This document shows positions 28,476 to 63,857 of a DNA stretch of 64,000 nt, piece by piece; within the stretch, counting starts at the first letter, position 1; every line of letters starts with the position of its first letter. The position numbers and the translations under genes were made by a program. Under the pieces are notes generated by a model. The model was not told the origin of the DNA. It was given only the letters and a program-made list of their open reading frames with translations, and made no database searches. Source of the DNA: Aegilops tauschii subsp. strangulata (lineage: Eukaryota > Streptophyta > Magnoliopsida > Poales > Poaceae); NCBI RefSeq assembly GCF_002575655.3, contig NC_053037.3, forward strand, positions 206,958,243 through 207,022,242, given 5' to 3'.

Positions 28476-28640
28476 TCCTAAAAAAACGGGCTCGTGTCCT
28501 TCTGGTGGCGTGCATTGTACGCACATTAGCCAACCCCAACCAGTTGAGCCTCCGCATTTTGAGTCGAAATATCTGGCGGCCAGAATTCCAGCCCTAGGAA
28601 ATCCCCCTCATGTCCCCCAGTCCATAATAACTACCGATGA

Positions 28641-35800: not shown

Positions 35801-36812
35801 TATGATTGAGGTAGTGAAAAATATTCCAATGACGCTTTTGATTTACCCACAGAATGGTTGAATTGCTTGTTTCTATGAACCGAGTTTGCCAATAATGTGA
35901 AGGATGCCAGTCTTTTCATCCTATTGTAGATTGCTTAGATCTCGATATGCCAAATGTAATCGCATGAAATATACAGTAAAAGCTAGTGTGATGTGTGCGG
36001 CTACAACTAGTCTGACTACACGTCCTCATATAACATATCAAGGACGCACCATCGTACTAGATTAACCATTCGACTTACCAATGCAGTGTGGGAAGAAAGA
36101 AGTATTGGGACTGTGTATCCAGGCAATTGATGCCATGGACTCCTTCGCAGAACCATGTAAGTGAAAAAGAAGTTGCAGTGTGCCTGTACAAAGAGCTAGC
36201 GTAAGTTCAGTTACCTGCTTCTCGGAATTTTAGTTAGCCACTTATTGCAAAATTGTTCAATTACGTTGCTTGGCTTAATTTAGTTTGCTACTAATTACAT
36301 AATGCCATAGCCTGTTAATCCTATTATAGACTGTGCCTATCTATGTGTTTGATACTTACTTTTAAGAATTACCTGTTTGCGTGAACTTAAATAGCTACTT
36401 AAGCACGTAGATAGCTAGTCATATGTACCTCTAGGGTGCAGCAGAATTCACGTGTAATTTACGTTCTGATACCCTGTTTGTTTAAATGGTTTGTTGTTAT
36501 CACTTGTAGCACAAGTAATGTTTGCATGTTCATAGATAGACAACTGTTAGGTTTATATGAGGGACACCATCTTTTTAACTTATACATGTGTTGGAGTCAT
36601 TTTGCTTACATCAAAGAAATTGACAGATGTCTGTGTTGCTGGTAAACAGTACCGACTTGTTACTTTAGTACGTTGCCACGAACTTGTTAGTTTTACTAGT
36701 TCATGTGAAATTAAATATGTTGCCAAAACTGGTTAGTTTTACTAGTTTGATGTTAGTTTCTTATGGCTCTTGCAAACCTTTATTTATTGATTGCTAACAT
36801 TCAAGTTTGCAC
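35801..36812 (+). other. Second copy of the NELA exon, and flanking introns
   Basis: At about 36083-36196 a diverged copy of the 34262-34376 candidate exon occurs. Its frame ends EVAVCLYKELA, with the same donor GCTAGCGTAAGT and a similar upstream phrase (AACCATTCG then ATGCAG). Together with the mini-exon array that follows, it may belong to the same gene. The rest is A/T-rich without features. Confidence 0.35.
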
Positions 36813-37391
36813 GATCCAACTAAAACTCCGTTGGCACAACAAGTATGTTTTCAGAAACCTCCTTGTTTACCTGGTTTGCTGCTGTAACTTGTTGCTGCAA
36901 TCATCTAACCAACTTCAAGTTTTCAGGATCCAATTGGAAGTCCAATTGCAAAGCAGGTACATTTTCAAAAATATATTTGTGTAACAGGTTTGCTGTTGTA
37001 ACTTGTTGCTCTAATCAAGTTACTGACTACTCAACTTTTCAGGATCCAAGAGAAACTCTAATGCCACAATAGGTTCCTTTTGCAAAACTTGTTTGTTTAA
37101 CTGCTTTGCTGCTGCAACCGGTTGCTCTAATCACGTTATTGGCTACTCAACTTTTCAGGATCCAAGAGAAATTCCAATGCCACAACAGGTACCTTTTGCA
37201 AAACTTGTTTGTTTAACTGCTTTGCTGCTGCAACAACCGGTTACAAGGATGTTAATAACTACTTTTCAGCATCCAATTGAAACTCTTTAATTCCTTGTTT
37301 GTTTAACTGGTTTGTTGTTATAACTCCCACTTGAGATGTTTTGCTAACTTCATGTTTTCGGAATCCAATTGGAACTTTAATGGCAAAACAG
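36813..37391 (+). repeat. Tandem mini-exon array (about 115-bp period)
   Basis: Six units start with GATCCAA-like sequence at about 36813, 36927, 37043, 37159, 37270 and 37362. In units 2, 3 and 4 an exactly 30-nt segment is flanked by TTTTCAG and GGT: 36927-36956, 37043-37072, 37159-37188. The peptides are DPIGSPIAKQ, DPRETLMPQ plus stop, and DPREIPMPQQ; unit 1 gives DPTKTPLAQQ and the last gives NPIGTLMAKQ. Because 30 is a multiple of 3, such exons could be skipped or included without shifting the frame. Intron-like spacers repeat TTTGCTGCTG and TTGTTTGTTTAACTG. Confidence 0.6.
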
Positions 37392-38860: not shown

Positions 38861-39310
38861 ACTATACTTTCTTTCCAGCTCTTAGAATTTAGTTCTTAGT
38901 TCGAAGCAAACAATGGATGCTAAATAGCATTTCCCTAGTTTGCAGCTTTAAATCTGCCATGGCACAGTCATAATAGGGTTTAATTGATCATGCTTAGGGT
39001 TTAATTGATCATGTTGATTCCATGGTGGTTTCTATAATAGAACTCGGAGGGGAAACCCTTTTTTCTCAAAAAAAAAATGCTTAGGGTTTCCCCCTTTTAT
39101 GATCACTATACGATCAGCATACGTGCTTCATGTCATAATAGCACTGCTCCACCCATCAAGCTAAACAAGCTTAGTTGTTCAAATACGAATCTCATATTAT
39201 TAAAACAAAGTCGTTTAATTGGTCAGCTAAATGTTCCTAATTTAGTTTCGAAAATGCATGTTCGCCGCTCGGGTGTGTATCTCTACAGGGTGCCCACGGT
39301 GAGCCGCGAC
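38861..39310. other. Non-coding left flank of the 39311 element
   Basis: Intron-like A/T-rich sequence containing a duplicated phrase (GGGTTTAATTGATCATG near 38978 and 38997). The last 5 bases, GCGAC, should be the left target duplication of the LTR element, but no right copy can be checked. Confidence 0.45.
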
Positions 39311-39787
39311 TGAGGGAGTCCTGGATTAAGGGGTCCTCGGGCGTCCAGACTATGGTACGTGGACCGGACTGATGGGCTGTGAAGATACAAGGCCGAAGAC
39401 TCTCTCCCGTGTCTGGATGGGACTCTCCTTGGCGTGGAAGGCAAGCTTGGCGCCCTGATATGAAGATTCCTTTCTCTGTAACCGACTTTGTACAACACTA
39501 GTCCCCTCCGGTGTCTATATAAACCGGAGGGCTTAGTCCGTAGAGGCAATGATAATCATAGTCATGCAGGCTAGACTTTTAGGGTTTTAGCCATTACGAT
39601 CTCGAGGTAGATCAACTCTTGTAATACTCATATTCATCAAGATCAATCAAGCAGGAAGTAGGGTATTACCTCCATAGAGAGGGCCTGAACCTGGGTAAAC
39701 ATTCTGTCCCCCGTCTCCTATTACCATCAACCTTAGATGCACAGTTCGGGACCCCCTACCCGAGATCCGCCGGTTTTGACACCGACA
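39311..39787 (+). mobile_element. 5' LTR of the gag-protease element
   Basis: A 477-bp LTR from TGAGGGAGTCC to TTGACACCGACA. The core promoter is TATATAAA at 39516-39523, placed between the inverted arms CCCTCCGGT (39504-39512) and ACCGGAGGG (39523-39531). This short LTR is the same family as 29689-30162. Confidence 0.93.
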
Positions 39788-39834: not shown

Positions 39835-42470
39835 ATGGCCCCGTCAATCATCTACAACAATGCTGTCCAGGGGGAAGTCTTCCTCCCCGGACAGATCTTC
39901 GTATTCGGCGGCTTCGCACTGCGGGCCAACTCGCTTGGCCATCTAGAGAAGATCAACAGCTACGCCCCTGGCCATCAGGTCAGATTTGGAAGCTTGAACT
40001 ACGTCGCTGATATCCGGGGAGACTTGATCTTCGATGGATTCGAGCCCACTGCAGCCGCTCCCTGCCACCGCGATGACATGACTTAAATCTGTCATCGGAC
40101 CACACCTAGGAGATAGCACCTGTAACTGCTCTGGCCCTAGATCCGGAGTAGATCGCGCCATCCGAGGACAGGAAGCTCAACCCCGCCACGGAAGCCGCAG
40201 ACTCAGCGGCGTTGGAGCCGCACACAGACCCAACCTCGGGTGGAATCTGCACCACCGGAACCTCAGACTCGTTTCCGGCTACAGGTTCCGAACCACGTGC
40301 GTTCATGTACATCGAGCTTGATCAGACTTCGATCGTCGAATTCAGCTCCGCGGACATCTTCTGGCACTCACCTTTAGGCGATGTGCTAAACTCATTAAAA
40401 ACACTATCCTTAGGGGGGGACTCACAGCCGAATTATATCCGGTTTGAACTGGAGGCTGATGACGGAGAATTTCCATTCCCACCCACCGCCCACTTCATAG
40501 CCACTGTCGAAGACTTAACCGACATGCTCGATTACGGCTCCAAAGAAATCGACGGTATGGACGACGATGCCGAAGAGGAGCAGGGCCAAAACCAACCGTT
40601 TACCAGGCACTGGACGGCCACTTCTTCGTACGACATGTACATGGTGGATACACCTAAAGAGAACAATGGCGATAACAAGAAGGATCCAGCCAAGGATAAA
40701 CCTCTTGAGACACAGCCAAAACGGCGACGTCAGCGGCGCCGCACTAAATCACGCCGTGGAAAAGATAATAATACCGGCACGAGAGAAAACAATACTCCGG
40801 ACGATTCCGAAGACAAGGAATACCCTGTTGAGCCAACCTCCGAACAGGAGGAATGGGAGGACGGGCGAGTCAGCCCTGATGAACAGGCCGTAAACGAAGA
40901 CTCAGAGGACAGTAATTATCTTCCACTCTCCGAGGATGAGGTGATCCTTGGCAACGAGGATTTCATCGTGCCTAAGGAACCTCTTGAGCAAGAGCGCTTT
41001 AAGCGCCGGCTAATAGCCACTGCGAGGAGCCTGAAAAAGAAGCAGCAGCAGCTTCAAGCTGATCAAGACCTGCTCAACAACAGATGGACTAATGTCCTGG
41101 CAGCCGAAGAATACGGCCTCGATCGCCCAACCAAAAGTTACCCGAAGCGCAAATTGTTACCCCAATTCGATGACGAGGCGTTGGAGCCCATACCATTAGC
41201 GCATCATGCGGCTGACCGACCACCACGTGGCCGGGATAAAGCGGCACCTCAAGTTGAACACCAGCCCGTCCTACCTCACCGTAAAGGCAGAGATAAAATA
41301 GCTCGGGGTTATACATATGACCTGCGGCAGGACCTAAAGAACAGAACAGGTCAGACCAGATTGATGTACGGATCGCGGGGGCATGCCCTAACGCGTGATG
41401 ACGGCCATTTGGCCGGACGTGACAAACATAACCACGCCCGAGCCGAAACTTGCAGTCAGGCTACATCCGAGCTACGTCGCGACTTGGCCCGATACAGAGG
41501 CGCCGCACACCCCCTCTGCTTCACTAACGAAGTAATGGAGCATGAATTCCCAGAAGGGTTTAAACCCGTAAATATCGAATCATATGATGGAACAACAGAT
41601 CCCGCGGTATGGATTGAGGACTTTCTTCTCCATATTCATATGGACCGCAGTGATGACCTTCATGCCATCAAATACCTCCCTCTAAAACTCAAAGGGCCAG
41701 CTCGGCACGGGTTAAACAGTCTGCCTGAAAACTCTATTGGCAGCTGGGAGGACTTGGAAGACGCCTTCCGCGACAACTTCCAAGGTACATATGTACGACC
41801 TCTAGATGCTGATGACTTAAGTCACATAGTTCAACAGCCCGGAGAGTCAGCCAGGAAATTCTGGACTAGGTTCCTAACTAAAAAGAACCAGATCGTCGAC
41901 TGTCCCGATTCCGAAGCCCTAGCATCCTTTAAGCATAGCATCCGCGACAAATGGCTCGCCCGTCACCTCGGACAAGAAAAGCCGAAGTCCATGTAAGCCC
42001 TCACGGCACTCATGACCCATTTTTGTGCGGGCGAGGATAGTTGGCTAGCCCATAGCAATAACACTGCAAGCAAAGCTAGCACGTCTGAGACCAAAAACAG
42101 CAACGACAACCCCCGACGCAACAGGCTCAAGCGTCGAAGCAATGGTGAGAATACCGACGACACGACGGTCAACGCCAGATTCAGTGGCTCCAAGTCCGGC
42201 CAGCAGAAGAAGCCATATAAAAGAAACAATCCGGGCCCATCCAGCTTGGACCGCATACTCGATCGTCCATGCCAGATCCATGGCACCCAAGACAAACCAT
42301 CCAATCATAAAAACAGAGATTGTTGGGTTTTTAAACAGGCCGGCAAATTAAATGCCGAGAACAAGGAGAAGGGGTCGCGAAGCGAGGACGATGATGAGGA
42401 GTCCCGTCCGCCGAACACAGGGGGACATAAGAAGTCCCCCCCCCCCCCAAGTTAAAATAGTGAATATGAT
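39835..42470 (+). pseudogene. gag: Gag of the gag-protease element, broken
   Basis: An ATG at 39835 (MAPSIIYNNAVQGEVFLPGQ) opens the N-terminal part, which stops at 40084. Coding resumes in another frame by 40212 and stays open to TAA at 41994. It includes an acidic, Lys/Arg-rich middle (about 40560-41000) and the gag domain: ESYDGTTDPAVWIEDFLLHI, KYLPLKLKGPARHGLN, SWEDLEDAFRDNFQGTYVRP, FWTRFLTKKNQIVDCP. After the stop the same frame continues (ALMTHFCAGEDSW) through a basic region and a zinc-binding-like CQIHGTQDKPSNHKNRDC to 42455. A poly-C run at about 42437-42450 then causes a frameshift into protease. Confidence 0.85.
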
Positions 42471-44335: not shown

Positions 44336-44517
44336 CTACTCCGCCACAATGCGGGATCCCTCCAGGACATTGTCAAAATATAACTCGAGCGTGCGGTGCT
44401 CCTTGCCCTCGGGCAGTCCCTCGGTTGCGAGCTTGACAGCGTTCATCTTTGCCCACTGCACCTTGACACGGGCAAAGGCCATCTGCGCAGCCTCGATGCA
44501 GACCGATCGCTTGATAG

Positions 44518-45703
44518 TGTCGGTGTGGAACAACACCTATGGGATCACAAGAATCCCTACTATGGTTGTCGGGGCACAGGGTGGCGAGAAGAGCAAGATT
44601 AGTAATCAGCACAAGGATCGTTTACCCAGGTTTGGGCCGCGAGGATGCGTAAAACCATAGTCCTGCTTTGGTGGATGTATTGAGTGTTCTTGAGCTCTCG
44701 AACTAGCTACGGTGGCGTTGCCGTTTCAGAGAGCCGAATCCCTCTCCAGTACGCCATGGACCTCCTTTTATTGTCGAAAGGGGCTGCCACACTGGCACAC
44801 AGGAGGTGGAAAGGCGTACAGTGCTATGAGCTTATCGCTCGTATTACAGGACAAGACACATTTAATGCGCCGCTGAGGTGTCCCCCTAGCTTTATCGGGG
44901 ACGGGAGCGAGGCCCGTCCCGTCCGTCGCCGCTCCTCCTCGCTTCGACACGCGCCCTGGCCAGCGATGCGTGTGGCGCCATGTAGGTAGGCAGGCAGCTG
45001 AGGTGGCACGGTGGTCGGGTCTTCACGAAGATATGCATGCCGCCACGCAGGCTCCTGCTGAGTTGGCCTGGAAGCTGCATGTTGCCACACAGGTGCCTGC
45101 CCAGCTGGTTTGGGCTGGCAGCTGCATGCGAACCGTGGTGGAGATTTGGTTGGTGTGGGCCTGGCAGTGGCCCTGCTGGCGTCCTCGGTGAGAGCCTTGC
45201 CGGGTGGCCCGGCAAGGGTCTTGCCGTGGTGCGCTGTCGTCCCCGGCAAGGATCTTGCCGGGGGTCTCGTGGCACTCCTCGGCAAGGATCTTGCCGAGGA
45301 CCGTTGTCTTTTAATCCTCATCTGATCTTGAATGTCCCTTGTCTTCACAAAGATCTGCATGCCACCATGGTGGTGCCTCCCGAGCACTAGTTCCAATGTG
45401 GTTGGTTGAGTTGGAACCCGTGGGCTCGAGGGTGGCTCACTCCGCTGGTGTGGGCGAGCCGCCCCGGCAAGGTCTTGCCGGGGCCGCGGAGGTTGCCCCC
45501 GGCGAGGATCTTGCCGGGGGAACCTGCTTCGCCTCTCTGCTTCTTTGTGTTCTTGGCCTTGGTGTTGCTTTGGCTGTCTTGGGCTTCGGTTTTACCTTGG
45601 TTCACCTCCCCTATTCTGCTTGGTGTGGCCGCGGGCGCGGCTTCGACTGTCCGTGCACAGGTAAAGGGGTACAATGGTGTGCCCCCTCTTTTGTACACCG
45701 ACA
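44518..45703 (-). mobile_element. 3' LTR of the nested TAT element
   Basis: It runs from TGTCGGTGTGG to CACCGACA. About 20 mismatches to the partner were counted by eye in the first 310 bases, so insertion is not very recent. The TATA box is damaged here: minus CAATAAAAGG, against CTATAAAAGG in the other LTR. It has two TGCATG boxes (45034, 45356) and five CCGGCAAG/CTTGCCGG-type palindromes between 45190 and 45520. Confidence 0.93.
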
Positions 45704-46218
45704 GGAGCCCCCGGGCCTGGCCACACATAAGCGCGACACGTTGTTGGGCCAGGCCCAAAACGGTGCGCGGGCAGGCGGGGCGGTTTTTACCGCGGTAAAA
45801 CTTTTCGCGCGCTGCGCTTCCCACGACCCGCGTTGAATGCGCGACGTGGAGGGGTGCGCGTCACGTGGGCGGCATGCGTGGGGCGGTTTCCGTGCGCATG
45901 CGTCATATCGTGGTAAAGAGCTGGCTCGCGCTTTCCCCATAAAAAGAGGGAGGCGTGGAGGCGCGGCTCATTTACTGCACGGGGCCTGGTTGCGGTCTTC
46001 AAGGCATCCACACCCCACAATCACGGGGTGGGGAGAGGTCGCTTCACCCGTCCCCTTGGTTCTGCATGTTCGCCACGCGTCCTCCATGCACTTGGGGTGG
46101 CGAGCGGTGGAGGCGGGAAACCGGGCCGTCGCTGGTTGGGCCAGCGGGTCAGTCTCGATTCCCTGTGCCCCCGGTGGCTGGATTGGCCAAGCGGGGCGGC
46201 CGAGCCCCGGTCCCGTCC
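45704..46218. other. 3' interior of the nested TAT element, upstream of the B3-like gene
   Basis: Next to the LTR the minus strand has GCCCGGGGGCTCC, a likely polypurine tract. The rest is GC-rich and holds the presumed upstream promoter of the plus-strand B3-like gene. Overlapping open frames here are frame shadows of GC-rich DNA. Confidence 0.5.
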
Positions 46219-46219
46219 C

Positions 46220-46228
46220 TTTATAAGG
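46220..46228 (+). promoter_or_regulatory. TATA box of the B3-like gene
   Basis: TTTATAAGG lies 77 bases before the ATG at 46305, in a GC-rich setting, at a spacing suited to a short 5' UTR. It faces opposite to the LTR promoter. Confidence 0.65.
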
Positions 46229-46304
46229 AGAGGGAAGGGGGATGGCATCCCGCACTCTTCTGTCATCTATCTCCTCCTGCTTCTGCTTCTTCCTTTCACC
46301 CACC

Positions 46305-46961
46305 ATGGAGAAGGGGAATCCCGGTCCCTCGATGGTGGCGGCGAGGGTCGCCGCTCGACAGCGCGTCCCTCCTCCTCCTGAGCCCGCGGTGGTGGAGCCA
46401 GCCGCGAGTGGAAGGGGGAGGGGGCGAGGCCGTGGGCGAGGCCGTGGCAGAGGTCATGGTGCTCGGGGAAGAGGAGGACGGGGCGGCGCGCCGGCCTCGC
46501 CCCCACCAATGATGCCTTTCCCGATGGAGGGCCATGTTGGAGACCAGCCCCGCGATTTCTTCATCAGGCTGCGCCGGCCTCCACATCACCGTCTTCGCCT
46601 TCCCGCCGCGTTTGCTCGGGAGATGGAGCGTGACCCGGCCCAGACCCTCAGATTGCACATGAGGGGCTCCGGGAATGGGGGCACGCGGGTCGACGTCGAC
46701 TTCCCGGCTCCTCGGGTCATGTACCTCCGCCGTGGATGGAAGACGTTCGCTCGCATCCACAGCCTGACGGCGGGGCTCGTCCTCTACTTCAAATTAATGG
46801 AGGACGGCCTGCTCTCCGTCAAGGTCTTCGGAGAGTTTGGAACTCGCCTAAAGTGCTGCATGGAGAGCTCCTCCGATGGAGACTCCGACGATGGAAGCTC
46901 TTCCTCGAGTGAGAGTGATGAGGAGGACAGCGGGGCAGATGACGGGGATGAGTCCGACTAG
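46305..46961 (+). CDS. B3-like DNA-binding protein, antisense cargo of the TAT element
   Basis: An intact 218-codon frame with start context CACCATGG, opposite in strand to gag-pol. Residues 1-34 are low-complexity. Residues 35-61 are an Arg-Gly repeat, a typical RNA- or protein-contact segment. Residues 84-185 resemble a plant B3 domain: DFFIRLRR, LRLPAAFAREME, VMYLRRGWKTFARIHSL, AGLVLYFKL, LLSVKVFG. Residues 187-218 form a Ser/Asp/Glu tail that could activate transcription. B3 domains bind DNA in plant transcription factors. No signal peptide or membrane segment is seen. It may regulate the element's own LTRs or host genes; both are inference. The domain call is from motif memory, without a profile search. 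Confidence 0.7.
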   Translation: MEKGNPGPSMVAARVAARQRVPPPPEPAVVEPAASGRGRGRGRGRGRGRGHGARGRGGRGGAPASPPPMMPFPMEGHVGDQPRDFFIRLRRPPHHRLRLPAAFAREMERDPAQTLRLHMRGSGNGGTRVDVDFPAPRVMYLRRGWKTFARIHSLTAGLVLYFKLMEDGLLSVKVFGEFGTRLKCCMESSSDGDSDDGSSSSSESDEEDSGADDGDESD

Positions 46962-48242
46962 GCGTCGGACGCCCCGCGCCTGGGCAGGTGCGATAACAGC
47001 AGCATCTGCACCTGGCCGCTCCTCCGACGGAGTTTTGCCGGGTGAGGGGCCAGCTCCTTGAACTTCTCGGGGCCGTCTCCTTGGGCGGCTGGTGTCGGGA
47101 GGCTATGGAAGAGGAAGAGGGCGGGCGACAAGGTCATCAACTCGGAGTACGCGGACACCGACGCCTTCGTCATGTGTCCGACGTCCTGCCGCCTCGTCTT
47201 CCAGCTCCTTTTCCCGGCACCGTCATCACAGGCCCACCCTTGGGTAGTCACCGCGGTATTCTTTTGCTGCTTTCCGCTGCTCGTAGCTCACCTAGGCGCC
47301 CCTTTTGCCCTTTCGCCTTCTTGACCTGCCTCCTGAGAAGAGGGACAAGAAAGGATCACGGGCATCTCATCTCTTTTTTAGTTTGTAAGCCTTCGGGCCT
47401 TCGTTAAATTTAGAACTTGTAATCCCCTTGCTCATGTTTTTCATTCCGTATGAACTGTACCTGCATGGGATGATTTTAATGAGAAAGGGATGTTTGCCGG
47501 GTTTTTCGTTCGCGAGTAGACCCCGCGACAAGGAGCGAATCCTTGTTACTATTTAAGATAAACGTTTTTTGCCCGGCAACAGGCCTTGCCGTCGCCCTCA
47601 CCTCGCTCGACCTTTCTCACGCTCTTGGCGGAGGCAGGGATGAAGTGGGCTTAGGCTCCTCGTTCTATCTCTTTGCCGCCGCGGCTACAATCCGGACCCA
47701 GGGGATAATCCTTAGGTATAGGAAAAAGGGGAGCACGGTAGCCTGGAGATAAAACGAGGTTTCACATGCCCCAGTTCCGTTCCGAAATGCATGACAGAGG
47801 ATGAAAGACTTATCTGGATCTGCAGCCCCCGGCAACCTTGTCTTGCCGCGGTTGGATCCTTGTACTTGCAGCCCCCGGCACTCTGGTTTGCCAAAGTCGA
47901 GACGCCGGTCCGTTCCCTTTCTTCCAAGTAGCTCAGCAGAAGTGCTCATGTGCCCTGCGAACCAAAGGAGAACAGAAAAGAATAGAGAGACGCGCACTCG
48001 ACCTCTAGGCTAGGGGTTAGTCGCCGCTAAGCACTATCAACCCTAACTAAGGAAGAGACTCGACCTAGCATGCATGCTATAACTTAGGGCGCCAGCGCTT
48101 CATTTATTTGTGCTCAGGGTCTGCGCCTGGCTTTGTACAAAGGGTTACATGCCTTGCCGGCAAGGCTTGTACAAAAGGTGGCTTGTTGGGGGGCCCGGCA
48201 AGCCGCGCCTTATGGGTAAAACTTGCGAAGATGCTCGATGTT
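46962..48242. other. 3' region between B3-like gene and integrase
   Basis: The plus strand just after the B3-like gene probably holds its 3' UTR, with AATGAGAAA near 47480 as a possible poly(A) signal region. A plus-strand stretch at about 47058-47200 (DKVINSEYADTDAFVM) looks coding-like but has no ATG. A repeated phrase, TGCAGCCCCCGGCA (47821 and 47868), lies nearer integrase. Nothing else is recognised. Confidence 0.4.
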
Positions 48243-49166
48243 CTAGGAGTTGCTCACTGGAACGGCATCTTCGGTCTCCAGGCGGACTGCGCCAGGCCTG
48301 GTGACTCGTATTACTCGATAAGGGCCTTCCCACTTCGGCGTAAACTTGTTGGAATTCTTGGCCGACTGAACGCACCGAAGAACAAGGTCGCCTTCCTCAA
48401 AGCTTCGGGCATGAACCTTGCGGCTATGGTAGCGGCGCAAGGCTTGCTGGTAGCGTGCTGCTCTCACAGCCGCCCCAAGACGATATTCCTCAAGGAGCGT
48501 TGCGTCATCTTGCCGCAACTGCTCTTGCTCAATCTCATCATAAGCGAGCACTCGAGGTGACCCGTATATGAGTTCCGTGGGGAGAACTACCTCCGCCCCA
48601 TATACTAGGGCGAAGGGTGTCTGACCAGTGGCTCGATTTGGCGTCGTCCTGATCGACCAAAGAACCACCGGCAACTCATCAATCCAGCGCCTTCCGCTCT
48701 TGTGCAGCATGTCAAAGGTCTTCGTTCTCAGGCCTCGCAACACTTCAGCATTCGCCCTCTCTGCTTGGCCGTTGCTCCGAGGGTGTGCCACGGAAGCAAA
48801 ACAGACCTTGCTGCCGAGGTCTTGAATGTACTGCATGATGGTGTGGCTTGTGAACTGCGTGCCGTTGTCGGTGATGACTCTGTTTGGCACACCAAAACGA
48901 CAGACTAGTCCCTTAAAGAACTTGACGGCCGACTGTGCTGTCACCTTCCTCACTGGTTCCACCTCTGGTCACTTTGTGAACTTGTCGATTGCGACATACA
49001 AGTACTCAAAGCCCCCGACAGCACAGGGGAAGGGGCCCAGTATGTCGAGCCCCCAGACTGAAAATGGCCAGGACAGAGGGATCGTTTGAAGGGCTTGAGC
49101 TGGTTGATGAAGCTTCTTTGAATGGAAATGACACGCTTCACACTTGGTTACTAGTGCCGTCGCATC
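48243..49166 (-). pseudogene. pol: Integrase core and C-terminal part (TAT element)
   Basis: The open part starts at 48962. The first catalytic region, YLYVAIDKFTK, is followed by a TGA near 48970 where Trp is expected, then PEVEPVRKVTAQ in the same frame. The second Asp lies in VITDNGTQFTS and the Glu in RSNGQAERANAEV. The C-terminal part includes NRATGQTPFALVYGAE, FEEGDLVLR and PKWEGPYRV. It ends at 48243. One nonsense codon, probably TGG to TGA, breaks it. Confidence 0.88.
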
Positions 49167-50000
49167 CTAGAGGGCGGCGGGCCAGAAGAAACCTTGCCGG
49201 AACGCCTTCCCGGCAAGGGCCCTCGACCCTATGTGGGAGCCACATATGCCTCCATGTATCTCTGCCAACAGCTCCAGTCCTTCCTCCCGGGGGATGCACT
49301 TCAATTTCACACCGTTTGGCCTTCTCCTGTACAGGACGTCATTAACGAACTGGTACAGGGCAGACCGGCGGGCTACTTTTTCCGCTTCTTCCTGCTCCTC
49401 AGGAAGTTCCCCTGTTTGGAGGAATCGGACAGTATGCTGCACCCACGCCGGAGCCAGGGGCTCGACGGCAAGGACCAAAGGCATTTCCTCTGCCATGGGA
49501 GCGGCTGTCTCCACGGCCAAGGCTTGACACCCTGCCGGAGCTAGTTTCCCTTTGGTAGGCTCAGCGTCCACGGCAGCATCCTTGCCGGCAGTACCAGGGG
49601 GATCGGTAGGAAAGTACTCGCCGGGACCTGACTTCCTTCGCTTGTTCCACCCCGTTGATGGTTCGACGGATGGCTGAGTTAACCGGAGCAAAAAGATACC
49701 TGGTTCCACAGGTAGCTTGAATGCAGCGCGCTTCGACAGGTAATCGGCCATGTCGTTCTCCGCTCGGGGAACATGCTCCGCTTGGATACCGTCAAAGCGC
49801 TTCTCCAGCTTCCTCACTTCATCTACGTAGGCCTCCATCAATGGGCTCTGGTAATCCTTGTTGACTTGTCTGACGACAAGTTGCGAGTCACCCCTGACGA
49901 TGAGCTTCTTCACCCCGATGTCCGCCGCAATCCTGAGACCGGCAAGCAGCCCCTCGTACTCAGTAGTGTTGTTTGTGGACATCTCCCTGGGAAAGTGCAT
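49167..50000 (-). pseudogene. pol: Second RNase H and integrase zinc-binding start
   Basis: It follows a TAG at 50001 in the same frame. NNTTEYEGLLAGLRIAADIG and VRGDSQLVVRQVN belong to the extra, archaeal-type RNase H that characterises TAT elements. After a linker rich in Ala/Pro/Glu comes YQFVNDVLYRR and the His-containing AEIHGGICGSHIGSRALAGK of integrase. A stop ends it at 49167 after FFWPAAL. Confidence 0.85.
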
Positions 50001-51560
50001 CTAGATCACGTACTTGAGGTGCTGTCCGGTGGGTGCGACAAGCAGCACACTGGCACCGGCGCCTTGCAGCGAGAAGGCCCCATCAAAGTACATGATCCAG
50101 TCGCGATCCGCTTCTTTGTCGGGGAGAGCGGTCTCTTGGATTTCTTCGTCAGGTGCTGAGGTCCATTCTGCAATGAACTCCACCAAAATTCTGCTCTGGA
50201 TGGTTGAGGTACTTTCAAACTTCAACCCAAAGCTCGACAACTCCAAGGCCCATTCCACAATCCTTCCGGTTGCATCTGGGTTGTGCAGTATCCGTTGTAG
50301 CAGGAGCCGGGTGACGACAGCGATCTCGTGGGCTTGGAAGTAATGACGCAGCTTCCTCGAGGCCATAAGGAGGCCGAAGAGCAATTTCTGCACACCGGAG
50401 TACCTCGACCTATCCCCCTGCAAGAGGGAGCTGACAAAGTAAACCGGGTGCTGCATCATCTTCTTCTTCTGCACCACTTCGCTTGACTGTGCGGGTGTTG
50501 CCCCGACGGCGTCAGACTCTGCCAAGGACCTTGCCTTGCCAGCACCAGGTCCTGTCGGGGGAATCTTTGGCTCGCCGTCCGCTGGTTCTGCCATCGCCAT
50601 TGCCTCCTCATCGACCTCCCTTTGGGCCACCAGTGCGACGCTGACCACTTGATTCGTTGCCGCTAGGTACAGCAGCAACGGTTCTTGTGGCTTAGGCACA
50701 ACCAGTATTAGCATGAAGGAAATGTATTTCTTCAGATCCTGCAACGTCGCCTCGGCTTCTGGGGTCCACTCCATCGGGCCTGCCTTCTTCAAGATCTTGA
50801 AGAAGGGAAGGGCGCGCTCGGCGGACTTGGAGATGAATCGGCTCATGGCGGCGATGCAGCCGGTGAACCGACGCACATCCTTGATTCGCTTGGGCGCCTC
50901 AATCTGTTCAATAGCCTTGATTTTGTCTGGGTTTGCCTCGATCCCGCGTTGCGACACAAAGAATCCGAGAAGCTTGCCGGATGGAACGCCGAAGACACAC
51001 TTCTCAGGATTCAGCTTAAGGTTGATCTTGCGCAGGTTGGCAAATGCCTCTTCCAGATCTTGCACAGGAGTTGCCCCGTCCTTGGTTTTGACCACTATGT
51101 CATCCATGTATGCCTCCATATTTTTATGGAGCTGGGGTTCAAAACCAATTTGGACTGCTCTTGCAACCGTCGAGCCAGCACTCTTTAACCTGAAAGGCAT
51201 CCGTAAAAAGCAATACGTACCACATGGGGTGATGAATGCTGTCTTCTCTTCATCTTCTCTCGCCATGAAGATTTTGTGGTAGCCCGAGTAGGCGTCGAGG
51301 AATGACAACAGATCACACCCGGCCATGGAGTCGACATTCTGGTCGATCCGCGGCAACGGGAAGGGGTCTTTACGACAAGCCTTATTGATGTCTGTGTAGT
51401 CAATACACAGCCTCCACTTCCCATTTGCCTTGCGCACCACTACCGGATTGGCCAACCATGTCGGATGGAGCACTCCTCTCACCAAACCCGCTGCTTCCAA
51501 CTTCCTGATCTCCTATGTGATGAACTCCTGCCTCTCCAGAGCCTGCTTTCTGACCTTCTG
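50001..51560 (-). pseudogene. pol: Reverse transcriptase and first RNase H (TAT element)
   Basis: From the solo LTR inward: GLVRGVLHPTWLANPVVVRK, LCIDYTDINKACRKDPFPLP, LLSFLDAYSGYHKI, and the catalytic box as MEAYMDDIVVK with both aspartates. RNase H follows as LYLAATNQVVSVALVAQRE, HPVYFVSSLLQG and WALELSSFGLKFE; then the start of the second RNase H (WIMYFDGAFSLQGAGASV). TAG at 50001 ends the frame, in frame with the next part. A TMD-type reading at SAGSTVARAVQ suggests drift (the usual Asn-Ala-Gly is Ser-Ala-Gly here). Confidence 0.9.
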
Positions 51561-54500
51561 TGTAACACCCCGCATGTAACTTGCCATATTTGTAACTCCG
51601 ACTCTTGCCATTTTCGGCTATGTGATATGTTTTTCCCTCCGTTGTCGGGTTTTGTCTTTCATTTTGTATTTTGTCATGTCATGCATTTACATATCATGTC
51701 TTCATATGCATTGCATTCGCATACGTGTTCGTCTCATGCATCCGAGCATTTTCCCCGTTGTCCGTTTTCCAATCCGGCGCTCCTATCTCCTCCGGTGCAC
51801 CCCTCTTGTTTTCTTTCGTGTGCGTGTGTCAAACTTTCTCGAAATGGACCGAGGCTTGTCAAGTGGTCTTAATATACCACCCGGAGACTACCGGTCAAGT
51901 TTCGTTCCATTCGGAGGTCGTTTGGTACTCCATCGGTTAACCGGGCATCCGCAAAGTCCATTTGAGTGTCCAGCAAAAACCCCTTCTAAAATCAGCCCAA
52001 AACCCACCAAACTCTCGTCCATGCTCTAGGTCGTTCGATCATGATCGTGTGGGCGAAAACCGCACCTCATTTGGAGTCTCCTAGCTCCCTCTACCTATTT
52101 ATAAGTGGGCATCCCGAAAAACGAAATCTCAGACGAAACCCTAAGTTTTTCCCTCCGCGCCGCCGGACGCGTCCGCCGTCGGCCGGACACGTCCGCCGTC
52201 GGCCGGACACGTCCGCCGCCGCAACCGACGAATCGCGGCGCGCCACGTCGCCCCGCCGCCGCGCCTACGCCGGCCCCCGCCGCCCCGCCGGCGACTGCCG
52301 CCTCCGGCGCCCTCCTCCGCCGCCGGCGCCCTCGCCGCGCTGGGCCCCGCCGGCCCTGCCTCGCCGTCGTCGGCCGGAGTCCCGAGCGCCACCGGGAGCC
52401 CCGATCTGGATCCGTTCGGTAGCCTCCCGTTGACTTTCTCGTCCTCGTTATTTCTTCCAAGTCCCAGAATTTTATCCGCATGTGCTCTTGTTCCCGATGC
52501 AGTACCTTCTTTCATGTAGCTCCAATTCGCACGTATAATATGTCAAATTGTTCGCCTCGTGATGCTCTTCATTTTGTTCAATTGCACCATGTTCATTAGA
52601 GGTCATCTTGATGCCCAAATCTTCGTTGGAAGAGGGCTAGTTGCTGTTATTCTCTGGTTCTTGTCAGAACTTGGAGATTTGTCATTTTTGTATCATTTAT
52701 TCTGTGCATCTTTTGAGCATGAGCTCTACATGTGTTTTAAAGCATGACATGCCATATTTCCAGTGGTTTAGTCCATGTATTTTTGTGATCTCTGTGGTGA
52801 CTAGCACAAGCATGCAAAGTAGGCCCCGTAATATTTCTGATTTCAGGGACTTCGTGATTTCTCTGTCTTTGTCTGCTGTAATTTTGTTGCCATGTAAACT
52901 TGATGCTACAGAGAGATCCATGCATATTTTGGAGATGTTAAGTAAGGATAATTTGTAGCTATAGTTGTAATTGATCCATTAATGCAATTGTTTGAAATTT
53001 TAGAGTACCATAGGATGACTCAATCTTGCTCTACTTTTGCTATAAAATATTTCTGGCAGATTCTTAACATGATATGCATTTTTGCCAAGCTTATTGTAGT
53101 TGATCCATACATGCTATGCAATTGTTCTTGCCATGGATAGCTCCATAAACATGCGATCTTGCTGTAGGTATGCTTGGTTTGTCATGAATTGCTCTGTAGT
53201 GAGTGCATCAAGCTCACAAAGAGGCCTACATATTAATATTTCTGCCATGCTCTGTTTTCTGCTAAGTCTGGAACCTGATAACGGAACTTGCTATGTTTAC
53301 ATGCTTTCCATCATATCTTTCTGTCCTTTTTGGCTTATGGTCAGTAAGGGACTTTTATCATGTGCATTTAGTAGAACACTACCATGCCTTGTTTTTCTAT
53401 GTTAAGTTCCGGTAGCGTGTTGATTTCGTGCTCTGAACACTGCTACCTGATGATGATTTCTGCCATGTCCAGTTTTTCACCAAGTCTGTGAACCTGTAAT
53501 CTTTTGCACTTTTGCCATGCTTGTTTGAGCTTGATATGTTGTGAACTAGCCATAGCTCAGTGTTCATATTTTGTCAAGAATCTCCTGTAGTTTACTGCCA
53601 TGTGCTTTTTTGCTATGTTGGGGTGCTGTAGCATTGTTACTTGTTGTATTTTAAGTGCTATCTTGCTGTATATCGCAGATTAGTGTCATTCTTGTTTTGC
53701 TTGCCATTTGCAAACCGTGCATCCGATTCCGGTGATCTTTATATCGATTTCGACCGAAATCATCTCATCTTTCCAGTGGCATGCTTGGTTTGCCATGTTA
53801 CTGCCATGTTCATCTTTTTCCTTCCGGAGCACGCATATGCATCGCATATCATATCTCGCATATCATACATGTTTTGCATCATGTTGCTTGCGCATTTCTC
53901 GTTGTTGATTGTGGTTCCGTTTGTTTGTGTTCTTGTCTTGGGTAGAGCCGGGAGACAAGTTCATGAACGAGGAACCTGTCGTGTACGCTTACGAGGATCA
54001 AGCTTTCGACAACTCTGATAATCTTGCAGGCAAGATGACCACCCCTCGAAATCACTTCTATCTTTGCTATGCTAGTTGTTCGCTCTATTGCCATGCTCCG
54101 CTACCTAGCACTTGCTATATCATGTCTCCCATTTTAGCCATGTCAGCTCTAACCATCTTTTCCTAGCAAACCGTTGTTTGGCTATGTTACCGCTTTTGCT
54201 CAGCCCCTCTTATAGCGTTGCTAGTTGCAGGTGAAGTTGAAGTTTGTTCCATGTCGGAACATGGATATGTTGGGATATCACAATATATCTTATTTAATTA
54301 ATGCATCTATATATTTTGGTAAAGGGTGGAAGGCTCGGCCTTATGCCTGGTGTTTTGTTCCACTCTTGCCGCCCTAGTTACTGTTATACCGGGATTATGT
54401 TCCTTGAGTTTGCGTTCCTTACGCGGTCGGGTGATTTATGGGACTCCCTTGACAGTTCGCCTTGAATAAAACTCCTCCAGCAAGGCCCAACCTTGGTTTT

Positions 54501-55648
54501 ACCATTTGCGACCTATACCTTTTCCCCCGGGTTTTCTAGAGCCCGAGGGTCATCTTTATTTTAAACCCCCGGGCCAGTGTTCCTCTGAGTGCTGGTCCAA
54601 ACTAGAGCCACTTGCAGCGCCACCTTGGGGAAACTCAAGGATTGGTGTTAGCTGTACGTAGTGTTCATCCGGTGTGCCCTGAGAACGAGATATGTGCAGC
54701 TCCTATCGGGATTTGTCGGCACATTCGGGCGGCTTTGCTGGTCTTGTTTTACCATTGTCGAGATGTCTTGTAAATCGGGATTCCGAGACTGATCGGATCT
54801 TTCCGGGAGAAGGTTTATCCTTCGTTGACCGTGAGAGCTTATGATGGGCTAAGTTGGGACACCCCTGCAGGGTATTATCTTTCGAAAGCCGTGCCCGCGG
54901 TTATGAGGCAGATGGGAATTTGTTAATGACCGGTTGTAGATAACTTGTCACTTGACCCAATTAAAATACACCAAGTGCGTGTGTAGCCGTGATGGTCTCT
55001 TCTCGCAGAGTCCGGGAAGTGAACACGGTCTGTGTTATGTATGACGTAAGTAGGTGTTCATGACCTCTTCTTGGTCATTGCTAGATGACGTCCGTTCCTT
55101 TGCTTCTCTTCTCGCTCTCATTTGCGCAAGTTAGCCACCATATATGCTTTTGCCGCTGCAGCTCCACCTCTTTGCACCATTTCCCCCTTTAAGCTTAAAT
55201 AGTCTTGATCTCGCGGGTGTGAGATTGCTGGGTCCCCGTGACTCACAGATTCTACAAAAACAGTTGCAGGTGCCGACGATGCCAGTGCAGATGATGGCGT
55301 CGATCTCAAGTGGGAGTTCGACGAGGAACGTGGTCGTTACTATGTGTCTTTTCCTGATGATCAGTAGTGGAGCCCAGTTGGGACGATCGGGGATCTAGCA
55401 TTTGGGGTTGTCTTATTTTCTTCTGGATTTTGACCGTAGTCGGTCTATATGATTGTATTTTGGATGATGTATGAATGATATTTATGTATTGTGTGAAGTG
55501 GCGATTGTAAGCCAACTCTTTATCCCATTCTTGTTCATTACATGGGATTGTGTGAAGATGACCCTTCTTGCGACAAAACCACTATGCGGTTATGCCTCTA
55601 AGTCGTGCCTCGACACGTGGGAGATATAGCCGCATCGTGGGCGTTACA
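51561..55648 (+). mobile_element. 4.1-kb solo LTR, Tekay-like, inside the TAT pol
   Basis: It is bounded by TGTAACACCCC and GGGCGTTACA with the duplication TTCTG (51556-51560, 55649-55653). Its single-unit structure and lack of any pol or gag frame indicate a solo LTR. A TATA box, TATTTATAAG at 52096-52105, gives plus orientation. Three 20-bp units of CCGGACACGTCCGCCGTC-like sequence lie at 52161-52220. A CCCCTGCAGGG box near 54862 and AAAGCCGTGCCCGCGG match the core of the 4.2-kb LTRs at 2429 and 23092, so it is probably another Tekay family. Confidence 0.88.
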
Positions 55649-56595
55649 TTCTGCTTGACGGGCCGTGCATGAGGACAGACAGCTAGGTGGTGCTCAATCA
55701 CCTCCCTGGGAACACCGGGGATGTCAGATGCTTGCCATGCAAGCACGTCGACATTCGCCCGTAGGAAGGTGATGAGCGCGCCTTCCTATTTGCTGTCGAG
55801 GGTGGAGCCTATGATGAAAGCCCCTCCCATGCCATCCTCTCTGACGGACACCTTCTTGGTCTACGGTGGCTCAGCTCTGGATTTCTTGCTCTTGCCGGTA
55901 GAGCTCTCTGGCACGTCCTCGACGGTCGCACAACACTCCGAGGAGGTGCGCTTGCCGGAGTGGGTGCAAGAGGTCTTGCCGGGCTTCTTCTTCCCTCCCG
56001 GTGCTTCAGCGGCAGGAGCAAGTACCTTGGCGGTAGCTGCTGCAACTGCTTCCCGGTAGAGTTGGTCGCCACAAATCAGCGCGTCCTTCTTATCGAAGGG
56101 GACGGAGATGATAGTCAACGGCCCGGGCATCTTTAGCATGTTGTAGGCGTAGTGCGACGCCGCCATGAACTTGGCTAGTGTCGGGCAGCCGAGGATCCCG
56201 TTGTAGGGCAAGGGGATCTCGGCCACGTCGAAGACGATCCTCTCCGTCCTGTGGTTCAACTCCTCTCCAAACGTCACGGGCAGCGTGACCTTCCCCTTCG
56301 GCTGGCTCCTCCCCGGATTGACCCCTTGAAACGTGCCCGTTTCCTCAAGGTCTCCATCAGGGATTTGCAGCCTTTTGATCACGACGGGTGAGATCAAGTT
56401 CAGGCCGGCCCCGCCGTCAACCAACATCTTGTTCACCTTGAGGTTGCGTATCGTTGGGGAGACCAACAACGGCAAACACCCGACCGCGGTTGTGCGGTCA
56501 GGGTGGTCCTCGGCGTCAAAGATGAGGGGCATGCTTGACCACTTCAGCGGCTTCTGAGCGTCGAACGACGGCTCCGCTGCTGTAATCTCACGCAC
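55649..56595 (-). pseudogene. Protease and protease-RT linker (TAT element)
   Basis: The frame at 56595-55861 has PLIFDAEDHPD, the protease signature KMLVDGGAGLNLISPVV (Asp-Gly-Gly), YNGILGCPTLAKFMA and a Lys-rich tail. After a stop at 55861 the frame continues toward the solo LTR with FIIGSTLDSK, TAG (55786), EGALITFLRANVDVLAWQ and SDIPGVPREVIEHHLAV, the normal linker before RT. The solo LTR interrupts soon after ARPVKQ. Confidence 0.88.
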
Positions 56596-58735
56596 CCACT
56601 ACTTGAGCTGGCGGTGAGAGGTATGCAGCTAGGCGCCACCGTCGATGCACATGGCCTCTGTGGCCTTCTGGAACTCTTGCTCGCCGGACTCGTCGTCCTC
56701 GTCATGATCATCGTCTTCTTGCTTCTTGTCACGGCCCCGGGCGGGCCTCTCTTGCTGGTTGTCCTTGTCGCAGCAGCCTCCTTGGCCGCCACGCTTCTTC
56801 GGATCCCTCGGCACCGTCCTGGCCCTTCTCCTTATCCCGCCTCTCATACTCGGCCTTTTGCTTTTCAGCAAGCAGCTCGACTTGCCGGCAGTTCTGGAGG
56901 TCGTGGCCTTTGGTGCGGTGGATCTTGCAGTACTGCTTGCCGGAGCCCCCTGGCTTGTCGGCAGTTGCTAAGGCCCGGCAGGCGATGCACCCCGCAATCT
57001 CCTTGCCGGGGTCGTCTGCCTTGACCTTCTTGGCAGCGCCGGTGTCGTCAGACCCTTCAACGGCAAGCACGGCCTTGCCCTTGCGTTTCCTGTTGCGACG
57101 CCGGCCCTTCTTCGTCGGGGCGGCGGTGTCTTCATTAGTAGAGTCGGTTTCCGCGCCGGCGTCCTCGCCGGGGTACTTCCTTCCCTCTTCAGCCCGGGCG
57201 CACCTGTCGGCCAGAACGTAGAGTTCGGCCACATCCTTAACCTTCATCATCGCCAGCTGTTCGCGCATCTTGCGGTTGCGCATGTTCTGATGGAACGCGC
57301 TGATCACAGCGGCGGGATGAACGTCGGGGCTGTTGTACTGCACTCGGCTGAATCTCTGGATGTACTTGTGCAGTGTTTCCCCTTCCTTCTGGGGAATGAT
57401 ATGCAGATCACTGGCCTGGCCATGAGCTTGGTGGCCCCTAGTGAAGGAGCCAACAAACTCATGGCACAGATCCGACCAAGAAGAAATGGAATCCGCCGGC
57501 AAGTGCATCAACGAAGACATAACATTGGGCTTCAGCGCCAACGGGAAGTAATTGGCAAGCACCTTGTCGTCGCGAGCACCGGCAGCCTGCATCGCGATGG
57601 TGTAGATGATGAGGAACTCGGATGGATGGGTCTTGCCAGTATACTTCTTGCTGACGTCGGGCTTGAACGTGCGGTGGGACGGCCACTGGAACTGCCGCAG
57701 CTCACGGGTAAAGGCTGGGCAGCCCACCTCGTAAGGTAGGCCGCCGGAGCCCCCCGGTGCTGGGTGGTCCATAGCGGGTCCCGCCCGCTTGTTCGACTGG
57801 TGGCGTGTATCACGCCGGTGCTCGATAGTGGTTCGAGCATCTTCGTGAGCTCGTTCTCGAAGAACTTGGCGCTGGTCGCGGCGGGTCTGCGGGTCGGACG
57901 ACGCTATGGAGATGTTATCACAAGCGTCGTCATGACGGGCCGACGCCCGCGGCGGCTGGCGAGGAGGAGGAGAGTGCACCGTAACCACAGCACCCCCGGT
58001 CCTCCCAGCGTTGGCATGTGGTGGCTCGGTGGGGCGCGGCCCAAGGGTCCCGCCAGTCGCGGATCATCTTTGTTGGCGACGGTGACGAGGCTCCCGATGG
58101 TGGCCCTCCACTCGTCGAGCTTCTGCGCCGCAGGAGGGAAGTCGAGGAGCAGCTGCGCGCGCGCCAAAGCTTCTGCTGGCGTGGGTGGCGGCGACAGCTG
58201 CGTGGACCGTGGCGTGCTTAGACTTCTAACCACGTTAGAAGGAGCTCTATCACGACCCAGCGCTGCGTGCCATTTTCGCCAGCACTTCGGCGGGCATGCT
58301 GAACTCCTTTGTCCCGCGGACGATGCATAGGGCACTTCCCACTGCGGTGTCCGGGGTCTTCAGCGCGGTGACGCTGCTCGTTGCGCGCAGCCTGGGAAGA
58401 GCGCGCTGTGGGCGCCGGGCGTGGGCGTCCTGGAGGTTGCTGCACCGCCCGGGGGTGGCGCAACGACACTCCTGGAGGGCCCCGCGCCGCCTGCTGGGGG
58501 CCCAGCTCCGTCTTTGGATCTGGCGACGTGCGGCCGGTCGTCTGGCACGCGCACGACGCCGCTCGCCAGGCTCTGACTACCAGGGCGATGCTGGTGCTCG
58601 CGAACCGCGGCCCGGGTCCTATCCGCGACCGGCCCGCTACTCGTCCGCACTGGCACGGGACGTTCGGCTCACAACGAGCCAATCGCTGTGGCCATCTTCT
58701 TCTTGGGATCCATGGCGATGAAGAAACACGAGGCT
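56596..58735 (-). pseudogene. gag: Gag of the nested TAT element, broken
   Basis: The probable start is MDPKKKMATA near 58710, soon stopped. Gag-like coding continues in different frames (QKLDEWRATIGSLVTVANKD near 58110) and then in an open frame 57988-56729. This last holds TRELRQFQWPSHRTFKPDV, YTGKTHPSEFLIIYTIAMQA, SWSDLCHEFVGSFTRGH, EGETLHKYIQRFSRV, a Lys/Arg-rich block and a zinc-knuckle-like YCKIHRTKGHDLQNC. At least two frameshifts and one stop are present. Gag would package the RNA. Confidence 0.85.
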
Positions 58736-58768
58736 AACTACTAGACCAGATTCTCACAATTGCGCCCG

Positions 58769-58783
58769 CTACCTGGCACGCCA
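58769..58783 (-). promoter_or_regulatory. Primer binding site of the nested TAT element
   Basis: The minus strand reads TGGCGTGCCAGGTAG, 4 bases from the 5' LTR. It differs by one base from the site at 336-350. Confidence 0.7.
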
Positions 58784-58787
58784 AAAA

Positions 58788-59974
58788 TGTTGGTGTGGAA
58801 CGACACCTATGGGATCACAAGAATCCCTACTACGGTTGCTGGGGCACAGGGTTGCGAGAAGAGCAGGATTAGTAATCAGCACAAGGATCGTTTACCCAGG
58901 TTCGGGCCGCGAGGATGCGTAAAACCCTAGTCCTGCTTTGGTGGATGTATTGAGTGTTCTTGAGCTCTCGAACTAGCTACGGTGGCTGTGCTCTTTCAGA
59001 GAGCCGAATCCCTCTCCAGTATGCCATGGGCCTCCTTTTATAGTCGAAAGGGGCTGCCACAGTGTCACACAGGACGTGGAAAGGTGTACAGTGCTATGAG
59101 CTTATCGCTCGTATTACAGGACAAGACGCATTTAATGCGCCGCTGAGGTGTCCCCCTGGCTTTATCGGGGACGGGAGCGAGGCCCGTCCCGTCCGTCGCC
59201 GCTCCTCCTTGCTTCGACACGCGCCCTGGCCAGCGATGCGTGTGGCGCCATCTAGGCAGGCAGGCAGCTGAGGTGGCGCGGTGCTGGGGTCTTCACGAAG
59301 ATCTGCATGACTCCACGCAGGCGCCTGCTGAGTTGGCCTGTAAACTGCATGTTGCCACGCAGGTGCCTGCCCAGCTGGTTTGGGCTAGCAGCTCCATGCG
59401 AACGGCGGTGGAGATTTGGTTGGTGCGGGCCTGGCAGTGGCCCTGCTGGCGTCCTCGGTGAGAGCCTTGCCGGGTGGCCCGGCAAGGGTCTTGCCGTGGC
59501 GCGCTGTCGTCCCCGGCAAGGATCTTGCCGGGGGTCTCGTGGCTCTCCTTGGCAAGGATCTTGCCGAGGACCGTTGTCTTTTAATCCTCATCTGATCTTG
59601 AATGTCCCTTGTCTTCACAAAGATCTGCATGCCACCATGGAGGTGCCTCCCGAGCCCTAGTTCCAATGTGGTTGGTTGAGTTGGAACCCGTGGGCTCGAG
59701 GGTGGCTCACTCCGCTGGTGTGGGCGAGCCGCCCCGGCAAGGGTCTTGCCCGGGCCGCTGAGGCTGCCCCCGGCAAGGATCTTGCCGGGGGAACCTGCTT
59801 CGCCTCTCTGCTTCTTTGTGTTCTTGGCCTTGGTGTTGCTTTGGCTATCTTGGGCTTCGGTTTTACCTTCGTTCACCTCCCCTGTTCTGCTTGGTGTGGC
59901 CGCAGGCGCGGCTCCGACTGTCCGTGCACAGGTAAAGGGGTACAAAGGTGCGCCCCCTCTTTTGTACACCGACA
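58788..59974 (-). mobile_element. 5' LTR of the nested TAT element
   Basis: A 1187-bp partner of 44518-45703. The first bases are TGTTGG instead of TGTCGG. The TATA box is intact (minus CTATAAAAGG at 59043..59034). TGCATG boxes lie at 59304 and 59626, and CCGGCAAG/CTTGCCGG palindromes between 59465 and 59790. Confidence 0.93.
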
Positions 59975-62970: not shown

Positions 62971-62980
62971 CTTATAAAGG
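62971..62980 (-). promoter_or_regulatory. TATA box of the antisense Transposase_28 gene
   Basis: The minus strand reads CCTTTATAAG about 110 bases before the ATG at 62861. The B3-like gene of the nested element has the similar CTTTATAAGG ahead of its own start. Confidence 0.55.
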
Positions 62981-63407
62981 CAGTGAATATCAAGCGCCTC
63001 CCCACTCGCCTTAAAACTCGCCTGTTCCCAAGGGCTGTGCAGACAGCACGGTTGGATTACCCACGCCTGTATTGATGAGAATCCCGTAATGAGGGGACAC
63101 GATCTCTGCTGCGACAAGACGTGCCACTAGAACCCGCATCTTGAAATGTGAAGCGGTAGGCCAAAAAACGGTTCAAAATAATAACCAGGCAGGGACGTGA
63201 TATCACGCTACAAAAAGTTGTTAGCGGATTGGACTCGTGAAATATTATACTCTCTGCGGTGGTGTGTGGTACTTGTTTTGCAGAGCCGGACACGTTCGTT
63301 GTGTTGGAAGACTGTGTTGGAGTATTCGGAGAAGGAACCCGCCTTGCAATGCCGAAGACAATCTGTGCGCCGGACACCTCGTCATTGAAGCCTGGTTTAG
63401 GGGCTAC

Positions 63408-63857
63408 TGAGGGAGTCCTGGATTAAGGGGCCCTCGGGCGTCCGGACTATGGTACATGGACAGGACTGATGGGATGTGAAGATACAAGACCGAAGACCCT
63501 CTCCCGTGTCCAGATGGGACTCTCCTTGGCGTGGAAGGCAAGCTTGGCGCCCTGATATGAAGATTCCTTTCTTTGTAACCGACTTTGTACAACCCTAGTC
63601 CCCTCCAATGTCTATATAAACCGGAGAGCTTAGTCCGTAGAGGCAATGATAATCATAGTCATGCAGGCTAGACTTTTAGGGTTTTAGCCATTACGATCTC
63701 GAGGTAGATCAACTCTTGTAATACTCATATTCATCAAGATCAATCAAGCAGGAAGTAGGGTATTACCTCCATAGAGAGGGCCCGAACCTGGGTAAACATC
63801 GTGTCCCCCGTCTCCTGTTACCATCAACCTTAGACGCACAGTTCGGGACCCCCTACC
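63408..63857 (+). mobile_element. 3' LTR of the gag-protease element, incomplete
   Basis: It starts TGAGGGAGTCC after GGTTTAGGGGCTAC, a likely polypurine tract, and matches 39311-39787 to GGACCCCCTACC. The last 28 or so bases (to CACCGACA) are missing. The TATA palindrome is damaged on the left arm (CCTCCAATG instead of CCTCCGGTG). Confidence 0.9.

Follow-up and report, generated by a model that had tools for sequence, protein, structure and literature searches.

What is a putative gene for a DNA-binding protein doing inside a retrotransposon, on the strand opposite to gag-pol, and what might its product bind? The question is raised by a stretch of 64,000 nucleotides from Aegilops tauschii (the window, to which all positions refer), where a plus-strand gene of 218 codons plus stop (46305..46961) lies between the integrase piece and the 3' LTR of a minus-strand element; an upstream ATG at 46242 would lengthen the frame to 239 codons. 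A preliminary description had reported this open frame, with its own TATA box and a strong start context, and had read its Arg-Gly run and acidic Ser-rich tail as the layout of a regulator. All of these features are present, and the frame is real, not an artefact. A TATA-type box, TTTATAAGG, stands at 46220..46228 on the plus strand, and the ATG of the 46305 frame is embedded in CACCATGG; a promoter region of its own is further suggested by homologous upstream sequence in the relatives P0051 and P0005. The encoded protein consists of an Arg-Gly-rich run (residues 35-62, 46407..46490), a B3 domain (residues 83-178, 46551..46838; Pfam span residues 94-175) and an acidic Ser-rich tail (residues 186-218, 46860..46958), with a charge of about -14 over residues 183-218. 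A search of the 64-kb window with a profile built from 143 domain sequences revealed no further B3 frame.

The enclosing element is a complete Ty3/gypsy element of Tat type on the minus strand (44518-59974), with paired LTRs, dual RNase H and the target-site duplication GATAG bordering both ends (44513-44517 and 59975-59979). Its 3' LTR (44518..45703, minus strand; TGTCGGTG...CACCGACA) is 95% identical to the 5' LTR (58788..59974, minus strand), where CTATAAAAGG lies at about LTR position 933. The two LTRs differ at 56 of 1186 compared sites (K2P 0.049), which at a substitution rate of 1.3e-8 gives an insertion age of about 1.9 million years. The interior follows the gypsy order, all on the minus strand: gag (56732..58063; PF03732, E 3.8e-8), protease (55864..56598; PF13650, E 5e-4), reverse transcriptase with the first RNase H (50004..51512; RT_RNaseH match), the second RNase H (49170..50000; RVT_3, PF13456, E 1.4e-19) and integrase (48246..48968; rve, E 2.4e-6), the protease and integrase matches both being under the Pfam curated cut-offs. 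Dual RNase H is described as a mark of Tat elements in the available text of PMC9289625. Between reverse transcriptase and protease is an unrelated-looking stretch of 4.35 kb (51513..55863, strand unassigned), probably a nested insertion of unspecified kind; clear terminal repeats were looked for in it and none were found. The earlier statement that gag and pol are broken is correct in part: pol is split over several frames and has this stretch inside it, but one gag piece is still open over 444 codons.

The product of the antisense frame is predicted to be a DNA-binding protein of B3 type. It matches PF02362 with E 1.2e-8 and 35.2 bits, above the curated cut-off of 30.1 (one relative, P0084, falls narrowly under it at 29.3 bits), and its AlphaFold2 model, of moderate confidence (mean pLDDT 61, pTM 0.42), resembles solved B3 domains, best those of At1g16640 and VRN1. 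Fold matches were obtained with Foldseek, and re-alignment with VIA-align 2 was restricted to Foldseek's list. PDB sequence searches gave nothing but Arg-Gly-rich matches, and for the domain alone no match; the assignment to B3 rests on Pfam and fold. Both the profile search and the structure prediction, which the preliminary description had proposed as tests able to refute its B3-like domain, thus returned a B3 match. The REM-type proteins At1g16640 and VRN1 are alike in having a basic B3 domain (pI 11.4 here), but identity over the alignment is 18-22%, and the present protein is retrotransposon-encoded and has an Arg-Gly arm and an acidic tail. Derivation from a host REM-type gene is plausible, judging from the modelled fold and from the names that NCBI gives to relatives (Os03g0212300-like).

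Separate searches returned 208, 420 and 348 protein relatives at E <= 1e-3, so this is a family-wide gene and not a single copy. The best 120 of each set were listed; in one search, 107 of the best 120 carry a precomputed B3 domain, and all 34 aligned members (34/34) have a B3 match at E up to 1. The named organisms among the matches listed are Aegilops geniculata or Ae. tauschii. The MEKGNPGPS N-terminus, Arg-Gly run, B3 domain and tail are all kept in P0001, P0002, P0009, P0021, P0025, P0030, P0034 and others, including relatives of only about 60-66% identity (P0021 and similar), while many listed relatives start near residue 69-76, without the Arg-Gly arm. Six overhangs of relatives were compared with the flanks of the frame in the window: significant homology was seen for two of the three upstream overhangs, whose matches cover the TATA stretch, and for two of the three downstream ones, but not for P0096 upstream (E 0.064 at the place concerned) or P0136 downstream. 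The viral-contig and genome-contig collections searched yielded no DNA relatives. Several Ae. tauschii gene models (P0103, P0106, P0127 and others) are close relatives of the element-borne frame, and NCBI names them "B3 domain-containing protein Os03g0212300-like".

Does the open frame reflect selection? By itself it is weak evidence, its length being unremarkable in a G+C-rich region: frames of at least 239 codons arise in 3.4%, and of at least 218 codons in 6.4%, of 1000 first-order Markov copies of the surrounding 2.5 kb, and a frame this long survives neutrally over the age of the element (K2P 0.049) in 51-52% of simulations. With a neutral survival of about one half, little weight attaches to the contrast drawn earlier between a broken gag-pol and an open B3 frame. 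Selection was instead assessed from amino-acid changes in protein sequences, not from codons. Among 149 sequences (148 relatives and the window), the 143 that cover residues 76-186 were kept and six gappy ones dropped; on a FastTree tree, parsimony assigned 324 changes to internal branches and 992 to terminal ones. The fold core was defined as 36 hydrophobic columns in predicted strands or helices, picked regardless of conservation between members. It received 49 of the 324 internal changes and 246 of the 992 terminal ones (odds 0.54, p 0.0002), a depletion that random sets of 36 columns matched in 1 of 5000 draws and that recurred on a second tree. The depletion persists when CpG and Arg columns are removed (31/153 internal, 164/482 terminal, p 0.0012) and when branch support of at least 0.7 is required (43/278 internal, p 0.0009); at support of at least 0.9 it is not significant (19/99 against 246/992, p 0.27). 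Relative to a neutral codon model, the core ratio with a CpG boost of 5 is near neutral on terminal branches (0.93) but not on internal ones (0.50); the two values are 0.66 and 0.35 without the boost, and 1.15 and 0.62 at a boost of 10. Internal changes do not score clearly higher in mean BLOSUM62 than the neutral expectation (z 2.4 at boost 1, 0.8 at boost 5 and 0.4 at boost 10), and the Arg/Lys columns, where DNA contacts are likely, show no sparing on internal branches (odds 1.29). Neutral evolution, the other outcome named beforehand as refuting, is not what this protein-level comparison points to, and there is moderate evidence, drawn from sequence comparison, that lineages maintained the fold while they spread and that constraint was lost afterwards.

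These results bear on several readings of the gene. One possibility is that it is a passenger, descended from a host REM gene that a single successful element picked up by transduction and then propagated without function; its conservation would reflect recent shared ancestry. Frame survival near 50% under neutrality would suit such a history, as would the nearly neutral terminal changes (the core/non-core value of 0.93 at CpG boost 5) and the weak result of the BLOSUM test; depletion of the fold core on internal branches, and retention of the full layout in relatives as distant as P0021, argue against it, and we consider it unlikely. Less likely again is that the antisense transcript, not the protein, is what acts: being complementary to the genomic RNA, it could form double-stranded RNA and damp the element, as proposed for antisense ORFs in the available text of PMC7264820, and homology of the TATA region in relatives is consistent with this, but conservation concentrated in the fold core would be left unexplained. 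That the frame is a genuine host gene outside the element, as the NCBI naming of relatives might suggest, is very improbable; for the copy in the window it is refuted by position, between LTRs with a flanking target duplication. The finding of at least ten Ae. geniculata relatives on eight chromosome-size contigs, among the matches listed, fits a dispersed repeat, and B3 is reported in Ae. tauschii LTR-element consensuses (PMC9289625, in the text available).

If the protein binds DNA, candidate targets are found within the element itself. Its LTRs hold arrays of a near-perfect 23-bp palindrome of the form CCCCGGCAAGGNTCTTGCCGGGG, the half of which is CCGGCAAG, grouped at steps of about 35 bp. 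The 3' LTR has three of this type at 45206..45300 (17-base cores at 45210, 45244 and 45280) and two more at 45461..45520 (45465, one base shorter; 45500, with one arm mismatched); the 5' LTR has them at 59476..59570 (cores at 59480, 59514 and 59550) and 59731..59791 (59735 and 59771), about 450-750 bp upstream of CTATAAAAGG, and this zone should be the U3 part of the LTR. With up to three mismatches allowed, the 17-base pattern has 35 matches on both strands of the window, against 0.6 expected, and 31 of the 35 are in LTRs; exact GGCAAG/CTTGCC arms occur 13 times, 4 in the 3' LTR, 5 in the 5' LTR and 4 in a related LTR at 311-1535. The latter is 77% identical overall and 83-86% in the palindrome stretches. 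It is a 5' LTR, most of whose interior falls outside the window; a reading as a 3' LTR, with the interior on its right, was rejected because the alignment continues into the PBS side.

The half-site is similarly restricted. All 37 copies of CCGGCAAG in the window, on either strand, are in the B3 element or the related LTR: the element's two LTRs account for 14, the related LTR for 8 and the element's own interior (8.7 kb) for 15, with none in the 4.35-kb stretch inside pol or the remaining 47.3 kb (51.7 kb together), and none in the B3 coding sequence. The five gag-pol pieces contain 15 copies of CGGCAAG, whereas synonymous shuffling that leaves codon-border dinucleotides free to vary gives 3.5, and none of 2000 shuffles reached 15. 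Among 3360 7-mers in these coding pieces CCGGCAA ranks first and CGGCAAG second; because the motif was picked from the LTRs, the coding-sequence test is independent of its choice. In coding pieces of the window's other elements CGGCAAG is not enriched (1 against 0.93). A favoured codon pair was rejected as the source, the 15 coding copies lying in phases 0 and 2, in both orientations and in several amino-acid contexts. Within the window the motif is concentrated in the element's own copies, here one element and one related LTR, the pattern expected of a target like that of VANC.

There is a somewhat better than even chance that the LTR palindromes and the CCGGCAAG sites are unconnected with the B3 protein, and serve instead as RNA hairpins (for packaging, dimerisation or 3' end formation) or as host-factor sites. 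In favour of this, 45200-45300 folds as minus-strand RNA at -55.7 kcal/mol (z -6.6), one palindrome departs from the common form on both arms with pairing kept (CCTCGG/CCGAGG), and the central bases of every copy are asymmetric. Single internal half-sites are unable to form a hairpin, yet they are enriched beyond codon constraint and in both orientations. A host-factor or hairpin role fits the LTR part equally well, but not the single half-sites in coding sequence.

How does this compare with known systems? Antisense extra genes are usual in Tat/Retand elements and normally encode TRP28: antisense TRP28 frames are described for 97% of 122 Retand clusters, with five other domains listed (PMC11963269), so that the preliminary description's view of antisense cargo as something not usually described for TAT elements is not supported as it was put. 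The terms "B3 domain", "B3 DNA" and PF02362 are absent from the main text of that paper. Nor is B3 cargo undescribed: one sentence and a discussion list in PMC9289625, from 2022, report B3, for Ae. tauschii alone, in consensuses of LTR elements, the sole such report in the literature searched, with subscription papers and supplements outside its scope. Those consensuses likewise place B3 in Gypsy-type elements from one Triticeae genome, and very probably represent elements of the kind described here; orientation, position, layout, selection tests and targets are absent from the available text. The presence of B3 was therefore already known, and anatomy, selection and a candidate target are new relative to that text, as are the LTR palindrome arrays and the confinement of CCGGCAAG to these elements within the window.

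The TRP28 genes of Retand/Tat elements (Grande gene23, RIRE2, Retand; PMC11963269, PMC7264820, in the text available) share with the present gene the Tat-type carrier, the antisense position between pol and the 3' LTR, a family-wide distribution and a proposed role as DNA-binding regulators; here the domain is B3, and the region between pol and the 3' LTR is about 2.5 kb, as against 2.9-6.6 kb (PMC11963269). The window itself contrasts the two kinds of carrier: the B3 element is nested in an older element, with LTR-like ends at about 39306-39760 and 63403-63857 (95.6% alike), a gag at 40152-41993 and an antisense TRP28 frame at 62498-62971 (minus strand; PF04195, E 1.7e-19). With that frame as positive control, the PF04195 search found no TRP28 in any of the 20 plus-strand frames of at least 45 codons at 45704-48300 of the B3 element. 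Elsewhere in the window are two pairs of long direct repeats of 90-98% identity (2417-6644/23080-27315, about 4.2 kb; 7189-10967/16673-20207, about 3.5-3.8 kb), likely the LTRs of mutually nested elements, and tandem repeats with unit lengths of about 350 bp (27778-28477) and about 116 bp (36801-37285).

The reading that we favour, with a probability of about 0.55, is that the antisense B3 protein is a self-regulator resembling VANC and acting on its own element's DNA. The nine-base motif to which VANC21 binds is strongly enriched in the VANDAL family that encodes the protein but seldom occurs outside that family, and VANC targets are often tandem repeats (PMC5735166, in the text available). 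The likeness is one of pattern: both proteins are transposon-encoded and predicted to bind DNA, and in both cases a short motif marks the element's own copies and forms arrays, although VANDALs are DNA transposons and the VANC motif is mainly non-coding, whereas CCGGCAAG is also found in gag-pol. On the self-regulator reading, a Triticeae Tat-type family would carry its own antisense gene, in the slot filled by TRP28 genes in related elements, for a small nuclear protein with an Arg-Gly arm, B3 domain and acidic tail. Transcription of the gene would start from a TATA promoter of its own and run against gag-pol, and the protein would return to the nucleus and bind the element's own DNA, possibly at the CCGGCAAG sites and at their palindromes within U3 of the LTR; once bound, it might adjust LTR transcription or silencing to the element's benefit, as VANC does for VANDAL. 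That B3 is the reader of CCGGCAAG is our inference. It is doubtful that the complete circuit exists, in which a host-derived B3 was selected for CCGGCAAG and the element accumulated the word in gag-pol codons and in U3 dyad arrays, giving family-specific activation or anti-silencing.

The function of the antisense extra genes of Tat elements is presented as an open question in the available text of PMC11963269 and PMC7264820. B3 is a well-understood DNA-binding fold, so the B3 variant allows a direct test of binding to the element that encodes it, and the CCGGCAAG set provides a concrete candidate target for the antisense protein: together they make up a candidate cis-trans pair. For annotators there is also a warning, in that Aegilops models named "B3 domain-containing protein" may be transposon genes; since the Os03g0212300-like models at NCBI include close relatives of the element-borne gene, counts of REM genes in the Triticeae may be inflated.
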